Shown here: positions 1-51,899 of the stretch, one piece after another | How positions within the stretch are numbered: position 1 is the first letter of the stretch | Layout of the letters: every line of letters begins with the position of its first letter | Source: Gemmataceae bacterium | GTDB taxonomy: Bacteria > Planctomycetota > Planctomycetia > Gemmatales > Gemmataceae | DNA: 64,000 nt | NCBI GenBank assembly: GCA_009692005.1 | Contig: SHZZ01000013.1 | Location: forward strand, 1-64,000 | Direction of reading: 5' to 3' | Translations under genes and position numbers: made by a program | The notes under the pieces: generated by a model | What the model saw: only the letters and a program-made list of their open reading frames with translations | Told to the model about the DNA's origin: nothing | Databases searched by the model: none

Positions 1-172
1 TGGCAAATAGCCGAGGCTTTTTGGTGAAAAACCCGTCGGTTGCGTTAAGTTCAGGACCCCAACCCGAGGTCCGGCGTTGCGGTTTAATAGTTGTTGGTTA
101 AAGTTGCCGCGGCTGGAAACCGGCCTTCATCACCTGAAGGCGTAAATGAATCTCGGTTAAAGGAACAAGAAC

Positions 173-42859: not shown

Positions 42860-43195
42860 GTGGCCAGAACCAACGAAAAAATCAGAATCCGTATGGAAGC
42901 ATATGACCATGAGATTCTGGACCGAACAGCCCAGGAAATCGTGTTGATTGCTGAACAATCAGGCGCCCTGGTGAATGGGCCGATCCCGCTCCCAACTCGG
43001 ATTGAAAGGTACACGGTATTACGAAGCCCCCATATTGACCGGAAGTCCAGGGAACAGTTCGAAATTCGGACGCACAAAAGATTGATTGAAATTTTGCAAC
43101 CGCAGGGGAAGACCATTGAGGCTCTAAACAAGGGACTCAGCTTACCCCCTGGTGTGGATATCAAGATCCGGGTGATTACTGGCGTAGCCAATTAA
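42860..43195 (+). CDS. rpsJ: 30S ribosomal protein S10
   Basis: A 111-residue S10 (NusE), first gene of the S10 operon. [35 protein letters not shown] and [15 protein letters not shown] are family hallmarks. The start is GTG 42860 with GAGGAG six bases upstream. The next gene is rplD, not rplC, which is unusual. Confidence 0.96.
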
Positions 43196-43340
43196 GCTGG
43201 GCTTGTCCGGATCGGGATGATGTGGGCAAACTTTCCCTTCCGACGAAAAACCGGTCTATTGTGGTTGAGTGTGGCGACCCGGCCTGTTGATTTTTGCCGG
43301 GAGTGGCTTATTGCCCCTGGTGGTTGGCCAAACTGAGGAA

Positions 43341-43982
43341 ATGAGCGGTGCCAAAATGTTGAAGATTGATGTCGTCAATCAAAAAGGCGAAGCGATTGGC
43401 AGCGTGGAGATCAACCCCGCGGAGTTCGGGGGCGAGGTGAAACCTCAACTGCTTCACGATGTGGTCATTATGTACCTGGCGAATCAGCGCGCGGGGACGC
43501 ATAGCACTTTGCGCCGGGGTGAAGTGTCGGGCAGCACGAAAAAGCTCTTTCGCCAAAAGGGCACCGGCAATGCCCGCGTGGGTAACAAAAGAACCAACAA
43601 AAGGCGTGGCGGCGGTACAGCCAAAGGCCCAAAGCCCCGCGATTATGAATACCACTTGCCTAAAAAGGCCGTGCAGGCAGCCACCCGCATGGCGATTCTC
43701 AGCAAGATCCAGGACCATGAAGCTTTGGTTATCGATGATTTGGGGTTTCCCAATGTGAAAACCCGCCAGATCCGCGAACTCCTCAAGAATCTGAAGCTCG
43801 ATAAAACCACCTGTCTAATGGGAACGGTGGGGATAAACAGGAACTTGTACCTGTCGGCCAGGAACCTTCCCAATGTGGAAGTTATGCCAGCAAACCAATT
43901 TAACGCTTACACCCTATTGAAACAGAAAAGACTGCTGCTGACGCGGGCAGCTTTGGATGAGTTGCGCAAAAGCCGTAGCTAA
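43341..43982 (+). CDS. rplD: 50S ribosomal protein L4
   Basis: A 213-residue L4, a large-subunit tunnel protein. The extended loop KKLFRQKGTGNARVGNKRT, then GGGTAKGPKPRDY, and the C-terminal KIQDHEALVIDDL are clear. ATG 43341 has GAGG very close; ATG 43356 (MLKIDVV) is also possible and begins at the position most homologues start. The 145 nt upstream, where rplC would normally end, holds no recognisable L3. Confidence 0.94.
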   Translation: MSGAKMLKIDVVNQKGEAIGSVEINPAEFGGEVKPQLLHDVVIMYLANQRAGTHSTLRRGEVSGSTKKLFRQKGTGNARVGNKRTNKRRGGGTAKGPKPRDYEYHLPKKAVQAATRMAILSKIQDHEALVIDDLGFPNVKTRQIRELLKNLKLDKTTCLMGTVGINRNLYLSARNLPNVEVMPANQFNAYTLLKQKRLLLTRAALDELRKSRS

Positions 43983-44015: not shown

Positions 44016-44345
44016 ATGAGTGTACCGAGAAACCGGAAAAGGATTCGCGAAGGTGGGCCGGTGTTGGAGCCTCACCAGGTGGTGATTCGTCCTTTGATCA
44101 CGGAAAAGGGAACCCACCAGACTACGCATAAGAATGCCTATCCTTTTGAGGTCAATCCCTGGGCAACCAAGGATGAAATCAAAATTGCGGTAGAAGGCCT
44201 CTTTAATGTACAGGTTGACAAGGTGCGCACGCAAAACCGCCTGGGGAAAAACAAACGGTACAAGTCACGAGTTGGCAGGCTTTCCAATTGGAAAAAGGCC
44301 ATCATCACCTTGAAGCCAGAAAGTCCGAAAATCGAGTTGTTCTAA
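44016..44345 (+). CDS. rplW: 50S ribosomal protein L23
   Basis: A 109-residue L23, at the exit of the peptide tunnel and the docking site for trigger factor and SRP. HQVVIRPLITEKGTH and NKRYKSRVGRLSNWKKAIITL match the family. An N-terminal basic tail of about 20 residues precedes the core. It lies 33 nt after rplD. Confidence 0.95.
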   Translation: MSVPRNRKRIREGGPVLEPHQVVIRPLITEKGTHQTTHKNAYPFEVNPWATKDEIKIAVEGLFNVQVDKVRTQNRLGKNKRYKSRVGRLSNWKKAIITLKPESPKIELF

Positions 44346-44380
44346 TTTGAACGACTCCGTAAGGAATCGCGAGGAGTGAC

Positions 44381-45235
44381 ATGGGAATACGACAATATAA
44401 GCCGGTAACTCAAGGCCGTCGGCAAGGCAGCGTCAGTGATTTTAGCGAAATCACCGACCGCAAAAAAAAGCCCGAGAAAAGCCTCCTGGTTCCGCGGAAG
44501 AAGAAGGGCGGCCGGAATTTTCAAGGCGTTGTTTGTACCCGGTTTCGCGGGGGCGGACACAAGCAAATGTATCGCTTGGTCGACTTTAAGCGTAAAAAAG
44601 ATGGCGTTCCGGCCACGGTGGTGTCAATTGAATACGACCCCAACCGGACTGCCCGCATTGCCTTGATTCAATATTCCGATGGGGAAAAGTCCTACATCCT
44701 CGCGCCTGAAGGCCTGCGTGCGGGTGAGGTGCTGGAAAATGGTCCCAATGTAGAGCCAAAGGTTGGAAATTGCCTTCCATTGAGGAAAATTCCAGTGGGC
44801 ATGGCGATCCATAATGTGGAATTGCAGCCTGGCCATGGCGGGCAGTTTTGCCGAAGCGCTGGCACCAGCATGATCCTTACCGCCCGAGAGGCCGATTGGG
44901 CCCAGGTTACTTTACCCTCGGGTGAAGTTCGCCGGGTTAATTCCAATTGCAAGGCCACGATTGGGGTAATGGGAAACTCCGATCACATGAACATTAGCCT
45001 GGGAAAAGCTGGTAGAAAAAGGTGGATGGGACGAAAACCACATAATCGTGGTACATCCATGAATCCGGTGAGCCATCCCATGGGCGGTGGTGAAGGGCGA
45101 ACTGGCGGCGGCCGGCATCCGTGCGGTCCGACCGGGGTGCTTTCCAAAGGTGGAAAAACCCGCAAGAAGCGCAAACCATCGAGTTCGGCGATTGTGCGTC
45201 GTCGTCGTCCAGGGCCGAGGTACGCTAATTCGTGA
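44381..45235 (+). CDS. rplB: 50S ribosomal protein L2
   Basis: A 284-residue L2, near the peptidyl-transferase centre. [14 protein letters not shown] at the start, the [20 protein letters not shown] core, and GVAMNPVDHP-like [18 protein letters not shown] with the following His-rich loop are present. The usual GRNN segment is replaced by KKGGRNFQG, within normal variation. It is followed by rpsS after 94 nt. Confidence 0.97.
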
Positions 45236-45329
45236 TAGGACTATTTTCTCCTATATTTCCATAGGAGTGTGGACGGGCATTTTAGTAACTCTACAATGAC
45301 TGTTCCTGGTTTTTTGGAGTGGAATTTTT

Positions 45330-45626
45330 ATGAGTCGTTCGCTGAAAAAAGGCCCGTATGTGGATGAAAGGCTCTTTGCCAAGGTGGTAAAAATTGGCAA
45401 AAGCAGTTCCCGCGACCCCATTAAAACCTGGTCGAGGGATTGCACCATCATTCCAGAGTTTGTCGGGGTCACCTTTATGGTCCACAATGGAAAACAGTTT
45501 TTCAAGTTGTATGTGACGGAGGATATGGTGGGGCATAAACTTGGGGAATTTTCCCCAACCCGGGTTTTCAGAGGGCATAGTGGTGGGAAAGCGTCCAAGG
45601 CGGCACCAGCCTCCTCGGCGAAATAA
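45330..45626 (+). CDS. rpsS: 30S ribosomal protein S19
   Basis: A 98-residue S19, in the head of the small subunit. [30 protein letters not shown] and [10 protein letters not shown] match the family. Its stop is only 10 nt before an initiator tRNA gene, an unusual intrusion in the S10 operon. Confidence 0.97.
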
Positions 45627-45636
45627 AGATTTTCAT

Positions 45637-45708
45637 CCCGGGGTGGAGCAGTGGTAGCTCGCCAGGCTCATAACCTGGAGGTCACAGGTTCAAATCCTGT
45701 CCCCGGAA
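45637..45708 (+). tRNA. Initiator tRNA-fMet (anticodon CAT)
   Basis: Acceptor CCCGGGG / CCCCGGA leaves C1 unpaired with A72, the hallmark that lets formyl-methionyl transferase recognise the initiator tRNA. The anticodon loop is CTCATAA on stem CCAGG / CCTGG; the usual three G-C pairs become A29-T41, G30-C40, G31-C39. T-loop GGTTCAAATCC. It sits inside the ribosomal protein operon between rpsS and rplV. Confidence 0.94.
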
Positions 45709-45748
45709 TTTTGTTCTAAGGTTGCGGATCCTTTGAGGTTTATCAGTC

Positions 45749-46105
45749 ATGCAGTACAAGGCTGTGCACAAATATGCGGATATGTCGGCAAGAAAGATTC
45801 GTCCTTTTGCCACTCTTATTCGCGGTCGTTCGGCGGAAGAGGCCCTGGAGTTGTTGCGCTTTGTGCACAACCGGGGCGCCCGATTGCTGGAGCAGGTGGT
45901 GAAAAGCGCCTTGGGTAATGCGGAATTTCAAAACGCCAGGGATATTGAAAGCTTGGTTGTTTCGGAGTCCCGCGTTGATGGCGGGCCGATCATGAAGCGA
46001 ATCATGCCCCGGGCTCGGGGAACGGCTTACCCAATCAAAAGGCGAATTGCCCATATCCATGTTACTCTTTCCGATGGAAACGCAGAGGTTGAGGCTGGGG
46101 AATAA
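45749..46105 (+). CDS. rplV: 50S ribosomal protein L22
   Basis: A 118-residue L22, lining the peptide tunnel. The core SARKIRPFATLIRGRS, EQVVKSALGNAE and the tunnel loop KRIMPRARGTAYPIKRR are intact. It starts 41 nt after the embedded tRNA-fMet, so this tRNA is probably processed out of the operon transcript. Confidence 0.96.
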   Translation: MQYKAVHKYADMSARKIRPFATLIRGRSAEEALELLRFVHNRGARLLEQVVKSALGNAEFQNARDIESLVVSESRVDGGPIMKRIMPRARGTAYPIKRRIAHIHVTLSDGNAEVEAGE

Positions 46106-50904: not shown

Positions 50905-51402
50905 ATGGCAAAAGAACGCGAACCGAAACAAGAAGAGCTTCAAGACCGGGTGATCAAAATCCGCCGTTGCGCCGCCGTGGTCAAGGGCGGGAGGCGTTTC
51001 AGTTTTAACGCCTTGGTGGTGGTGGGGGATACGCGGGGTAGAGTTGCTTCGGGTTACGGCAAGGCCAATGAGGTTCCTCCTGCGGTGGAAAAAGCCACCA
51101 AGGATGCCCAGGGAGCATTAAAGCGGACCCGCAGGGTTTCTCTGCGCGGGGATACCATTCCGCATCGGGTGGTGGGAAAATTTGGCGCTAGTCGAGTGGT
51201 TTTGGTGCCGGCCGGTCCTGGCACCGGGGTCAAAGCCGGCGCTGGCGTTCGCGATGTGCTGGAAGTTTGCGGCGTGAAAAACATTCTGACCAAGGTTCAT
51301 GGCAGCACCAACCCACTCAACCTGGTCAAGGCTACAATTCAAGGTTTGCAGCAACTCCGCACTCGCGCGGAAGTGGCTTCACTTCGGGGAGTAACACTCT
51401 AA
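50905..51402 (+). CDS. rpsE: 30S ribosomal protein S5
   Basis: A 165-residue S5, involved in decoding accuracy. VIKIRRCAAVVKGGRRFSF, GKANEVPPAVEKAT and PHRVVGKFGASRVVLVPAGPGTG match the family. ATG 50905 has GGAAAGA upstream; ATG 50893 is in frame. Its stop overlaps rplO (TAATG); rpmD (L30), usually between them, is absent. Confidence 0.96.
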   Translation: MAKEREPKQEELQDRVIKIRRCAAVVKGGRRFSFNALVVVGDTRGRVASGYGKANEVPPAVEKATKDAQGALKRTRRVSLRGDTIPHRVVGKFGASRVVLVPAGPGTGVKAGAGVRDVLEVCGVKNILTKVHGSTNPLNLVKATIQGLQQLRTRAEVASLRGVTL

Positions 51403-51899
51403 TGGATTTGTCGAAGGTACATATTGGCGTCAATCGCCTGAAAAAGAAAAAACGGGTGGGTCGCGGCATTGGCAGCGGCCATGGAAAGACCTCTACGCGC
51501 GGACACAAAGGCCAGTACGCCAGCGCTGGCGCCGATATGCCTATCGCCTCGTTTGAAGGCGGTCAGATGCAGCTATTCCGCCGAATTCCCAAACGCGGAT
51601 TCAGTCATGCTACCTGGGATAAAACATTCCTGGTGGTAAACCTTGGCGACATTGATTCTTTGTTTCAAGAAGGGGAAGTGGTGAATCCGGAGTCCCTGGC
51701 CTTAAAGGGCTTGGCCAAGGGACCGTGCGACGGAATGAAAATCCTGGGCAAGGGCGAGCTTTCTAAAAAGTTAAATTTTCGCGCACACCATTTTTCCAAA
51801 TCTGCTGTGGAAAAAATCCAAGCCAAGGGCGGGCTGGCTGAAATCATTCCTCCTCCGGCCAAGCCCAAGCGTAACAAAATGAAACCCAAGCAAAAGTGA
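51402..51899 (+). CDS. rplO: 50S ribosomal protein L15
   Basis: A 165-residue L15. KKRVGRGIGSGHGKTSTRGHKGQ at the start and FEGGQMQLFRRIPKRGF are family hallmarks; the C-terminus has a basic tail. It starts inside the rpsE stop codon, so no gene for L30 can fit between them. Confidence 0.96.
   Translation: MDLSKVHIGVNRLKKKKRVGRGIGSGHGKTSTRGHKGQYASAGADMPIASFEGGQMQLFRRIPKRGFSHATWDKTFLVVNLGDIDSLFQEGEVVNPESLALKGLAKGPCDGMKILGKGELSKKLNFRAHHFSKSAVEKIQAKGGLAEIIPPPAKPKRNKMKPKQK

Follow-up and report, generated by a model that had tools for sequence, protein, structure and literature searches.

The rplC gene lies outside the S10 operon throughout Gemmatales and is preceded in about half of the genomes by a candidate RNA leader

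Few gene orders in bacteria are as conserved as that of the S10 string, and the adjacency of rplC and rplD is usually assumed. L3, the product of rplC, is a primary assembly protein of the 50S subunit. The window, a 64,000-nt stretch of contig SHZZ01000013.1 from a Gemmataceae bacterium, carries an S10 cluster with the following features around the expected position of rplC:

42860..43195, + strand: rpsJ (S10), an open reading frame matching NF001861 at 144 bits; first gene of the S10 cluster
43196..43340, + strand: rpsJ-rplD spacer, the site of rplC in other planctomycetes; contains no L3 coding sequence or remnant
43341..43982, + strand: rplD (L4), matching TIGR03953 at 211 bits; start at ATG 43341 or ATG 43356
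44016..46105, + strand: rplW, rplB, rpsS, tRNA-Met(CAT) and rplV, the remaining S10 cluster in normal gene order

The start codon of rpsJ is likely GTG. Profile searches identified S10 and L4, then L23, L2, S19 and L22, as the proteins flanking the gap. Between the end of rpsJ (43195) and the rplD ATG at 43341 there are 145 nt, a length that matches relatives with the same arrangement, and rplC does not occupy its canonical position between the two genes. A tblastn search with the L3 of this genome returned chance-level matches only, whether the target was the entire window or 43151-43420; coordinates and search thus agree with the first-pass annotation, which had reported that no L3 could be read here in any frame. 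The frame LLIFAGSGLLPLVVG upstream of rplD, thought there to be faintly like an L3 tail and yet not called a remnant, is not distinguished from its own shuffles by alignment to L3, 17% of them scoring as high. An L3 remnant in the spacer is therefore ruled out, and the earlier caution was justified. The only known Rfam elements found at the spacer and at the rplC locus were tRNAs. Two further observations concern the ribosomal-protein genes of the window. The S10 operon contains the tRNA-Met(CAT) at 45636-45709, with rpsS on one side and rplV on the other; the same holds for about half of 20 other Gemmatales S10 loci, with both families represented, and for no canonical planctomycete locus examined. 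Moreover, rplO (ATG at about 51402) directly follows rpsE (window 51400-51405), and the spc operon lacks rpmD (L30).

The genome to which the window belongs (4.19 Mb in 99 contigs, 100% complete by computed estimate) holds a single rplC, on a contig other than that of the window (G000:C8:16551-17255). The gene encodes 235 amino acids with no internal stops, and its product (P0001) matches TIGR03625 over the full length at 226.1 bits, above the curated cut-off of 142.9, as expected of a uL3 protein. It is a lone gene, with a divergent sulfatase-like gene upstream and a tRNA-Phe downstream; the functions of these neighbours are putative ones, read from the sequences. The tRNA-Phe begins about 100 nt past the rplC stop (L164:9358-9431 on the same contig), is directly followed by a terminator-like hairpin in this genome, and is found behind rplC only in the lineage of the window and in several related genera. 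A TTGAC-like box belonging to the tRNA-Phe often lies between the two genes, and we therefore make no claim of co-transcription.

We searched 102 Gemmatales genomes with L3, L4 and S10 models, and 198 genomes across the class with L3 and S10 models, and then compared coordinates. Where a Gemmatales genome has rpsJ and rplD on the same contig, the interval between them, 157-678 nt from profile edge to profile edge, was free of L3 matches in every case (93/93). In 88/88 genomes, single-contig genomes included, rplC was found elsewhere, and in the 12 genomes that have rplC and rpsJ on a common contig the two are at least 224 kb apart. For eight of the 102 genomes the search found no L3, and several of those eight are incomplete. 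By contrast, rplC follows rpsJ at 78-664 nt in 118/118 scored genomes of the class's other orders, a count that leaves out one further genome with rpsJ and rplC on different contigs. A synteny comparison of 110 rplC loci was split just as cleanly: all Gemmatales loci had rplC without ribosomal-protein neighbours, whereas rpsJ-rplC-rplD is kept in Pirellulales, Planctomycetales, Phycisphaerae and others. A location of rplC outside the S10 operon is thus a trait fixed throughout Gemmatales as an order. The surroundings of the moved gene vary between genera, so that either rplC itself kept moving or its surroundings did; a conserved new operon for rplC is ruled out by the same variation.

The first-pass annotation had left two explanations standing, L3 elsewhere in the genome or a deletion in this contig, and had proposed a genome-wide search for rplC and a comparison with the S10 operon of relatives. 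Both bear out the former explanation, since one intact copy lies on a different contig and the junction without rplC recurs throughout Gemmatales. That an assembly error or a true deletion took rplC out of the operon could be suspected of a 99-contig, MAG-like assembly. However, the same junction is shared by all 93 informative Gemmatales genomes, among them the single-contig genomes G001, G008, G048, G049, G077 and G105, and rplC is intact on its own contig; a deletion or collapse is therefore excluded for practical purposes. Another account has the ancestral rplC lost and a horizontally acquired copy, whose donor may have been another planctomycete, taking over at a new place. The absence of other ribosomal-protein genes at the new location would suit such a replacement. 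Against it, almost all of the best matches of this L3 in the genome collection come from planctomycetes, and identity to canonical planctomycete L3 proteins reaches about 60%. Moreover, the L3 tree places Gemmatales beside other Planctomycetia, and a branch of that tree (SH-aLRT 94, one change) divides the detached genes from the rest; we consider replacement very improbable. As the tree requires a single change, one move of rplC explains the data. We are almost certain that rplC was relocated to a site apart from the rpsJ-rplC-rplD string to which it had belonged. The relocation was a single event, no later than the common ancestor of Gemmatales, and since then an intact single rplC has been passed on vertically while its surroundings changed.

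Comparison of the upstream regions indicates that the moved rplC very probably has a sigma-70-like promoter of its own. Of 29 rplC upstream regions, 16 contained the pattern TKGMCN-16..18-YAYNNT, whereas dinucleotide shuffles gave 0.9 such regions on average and 3 at most; a stricter form was present in 9/29 and in none of the shuffles. In the window's genome the site reads TGGCCA-N17-TACATT (C8:16428-16456). A simple promoter scan near this rplC found no consensus site; the conserved promoter is a TGGAC-type variant and is visible only by comparison. In the L005-L031 set, Gemmatales genera without the leader described below (e.g. L009, L012, L015 and L018) have a TGGACG-N17-YATAAT promoter in which the letters after the -10 box are also conserved, and these genera may carry other leaders.

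Alignment of the rplC upstream regions showed that, a short way ahead of the ATG, a variable hairpin is flanked by two invariant blocks. Together these parts form a conserved fold of 41-51 nt, made up of an outer stem, UGAUGC, an inner hairpin, (A/G)CAG and the closing arm of the outer stem; the invariant blocks are CGGCAATGATGCTCACC and AGACAGTTGC. A descriptor of this design (stem, UGRUG, hairpin, CAG, stem) found it in many genera. Type A, that of the window's genome, reads GGCAA-UGAUGCUCACCCGGGGCACCCCAGGGCCAGACAG-UUGCU, type B reads GGCCA-UGAUGCCCGCCACCAGUGGCGUUGAGCAG-UGGCC, and the Gemmata type reads CCGAC-UGAUGC-hairpin-GCAG-GUCGG. In the window's genome the element (C8:16486-16533) ends 17 nt before the rplC ATG, with an AGGAG site inside that gap. 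Types A and B were modelled jointly (alignment A3, model R1) and the Gemmata type apart (A4, R2), because a joint MAFFT alignment misplaced the CAG of the latter. In these alignments, which were partly picked by eye ahead of the statistics, covariation was 0.370 for A3 against 0.163 shuffled, with slid controls at 0.093 or less, and 0.424 for A4 against 0.201 shuffled. In each case 0/500 shuffles reached the observed value, and the slid controls for both alignments taken together were at 0.154 or less. The minimum free energy of the element in the window's genome is not unusual relative to shuffles (z -0.21).

Among the 102 Gemmatales genomes, R1 gave 23 strong matches (40.7-60 bits, next 27.5) and R2 gave 30 (41.5-56.6 bits, next 35.2). 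These 53 matches are without exception immediately 5′ of rplC and on its strand, most of them in genomes outside the training set, and weaker matches in G065 and G093 are also at rplC. One 35-bit R2 match lies away from rplC, at G109:C799:4727-4764. Nothing above 20 bits was found with either model at 55 canonical planctomycete S10 loci, and no copy of the element was found within the window. The leader is present in about half of Gemmatales genomes, that of the window included, and was not seen in the remaining half or so, which takes in all of family f2; rplC can therefore be expressed without it. On the L3 tree, each of the three large parts of Gemmataceae has leader-bearing genera, and f2 has none. 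From this distribution the leader was probably gained after the rplC move and lost in places, and transfer between genera is possible. The element has no match in Rfam and, going by Rfam and the literature searched, this folded RNA ahead of rplC is previously undescribed.

Judging from comparative sequence evidence, we think it probable that the leader is genuine, a structured RNA that regulates in cis. It shares with r-leaders a consistent position upstream of a ribosomal-protein gene and a conserved secondary structure backed by covariation. Likeness to the rRNA site of the ligand, a common r-leader feature that is not required, was not found: a model search against Gemmatales 23S rRNA, taken from a relative because the window's own assembly has none, gave a best score of 9.8 bits, which is chance level. 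A single UGAUGUUCCAGUU string near the 3′ end of that 23S (L242:4048-4065) superficially resembles the leader's UGAUGC...CAGUU. As a case of mimicry we rejected it, UGAUG..CAGUU occurring once (L242:4048) and being too short to count. The same observations could be taken to mean that the element acts as DNA, being part of a promoter or a repressor operator, or that it is a processing or stability hairpin, given its closeness to the promoter, the invariance of some of its blocks and the lack of rRNA mimicry. We regard this as rather unlikely. In two helices, changes in one arm are matched in the other and the loops keep their letters; read as mRNA, the helices also admit G-U pairs. An RNA fold predicts all of this. 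Moreover, sequence comparison places the promoter-like sites upstream of the element, and a general stability element would be expected at other genes too, whereas the strong matches to this one are all at rplC.

The structured-RNA reading suggests the following mechanism. The leader would be transcribed as part of the rplC 5′ leader, and free L3, or possibly another factor, would bind it. The bound leader would then lower rplC translation by blocking the ribosome-binding site, which in the window's lineage lies only a few bases downstream. L3 is the simplest candidate ligand because it is the product of the only gene behind the leader, and it may be the ligand, albeit at slightly less than even odds. 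In E. coli, L4 controls the S10 operon, rplC included, through the operon leader (PMC10931766), and an rplC outside the operon escapes that control. Most likely, the element is an r-leader that replaces this lost control by L4, for which it would stand in. We attach a probability of roughly 0.85 to the overall explanation of the locus by relocation, an own promoter and the candidate leader. The fuller proposal, in which the stand-alone rplC gained a feedback RNA that is the first r-leader to sense L3 and so repaired the operon break, is put forward only tentatively.

The move of rplC alone is a solid and moderately surprising piece of genome evolution. A break that spans the order and goes back to one event is a clean natural experiment on what holds ribosomal-protein genes together, and the detached gene can serve as an easy marker of the order. 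The candidate leader, for its part, is a compact and testable RNA. Should L3 bind it, this would add a new ligand to those of known r-leaders and show that feedback can be rebuilt once a gene has left its operon. If true, Gemmatales would hold a natural record of an operon break mended by a new autoregulatory RNA.

Apart from rplC, the genes in the window follow the order of the canonical S10 operon (rpsJ-rplC-rplD-rplW-rplB-rpsS-rplV-rpsC-...); the canonical operon has rplC, whereas all Gemmatales examined have it alone elsewhere. Among described regulators, autogenous r-leaders (PMC7247131), for example those for L20, S15, L31 and L17, are likewise small, structured and supported by covariation, and like the candidate each is confined to the region 5′ of a single ribosomal-protein gene. 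Mimicry of rRNA is not required of r-leaders (PMC7247131). Table 1 of that paper (Eckert and Weinberg 2020), with 20 new r-leaders, has none for L3, and uL3 figures solely as an assembly protein in a review from 2023 on extraribosomal functions (PMC10931766). The E. coli S10 leader and the proposed Archaeoglobi L4 leader, which lies upstream of rplC-rplD, likewise control the expression of rplC. The candidate probably differs from both in its fold. Those two leaders act on a whole operon through L4, whereas the Gemmatales candidate would serve a single-gene bacterial rplC.
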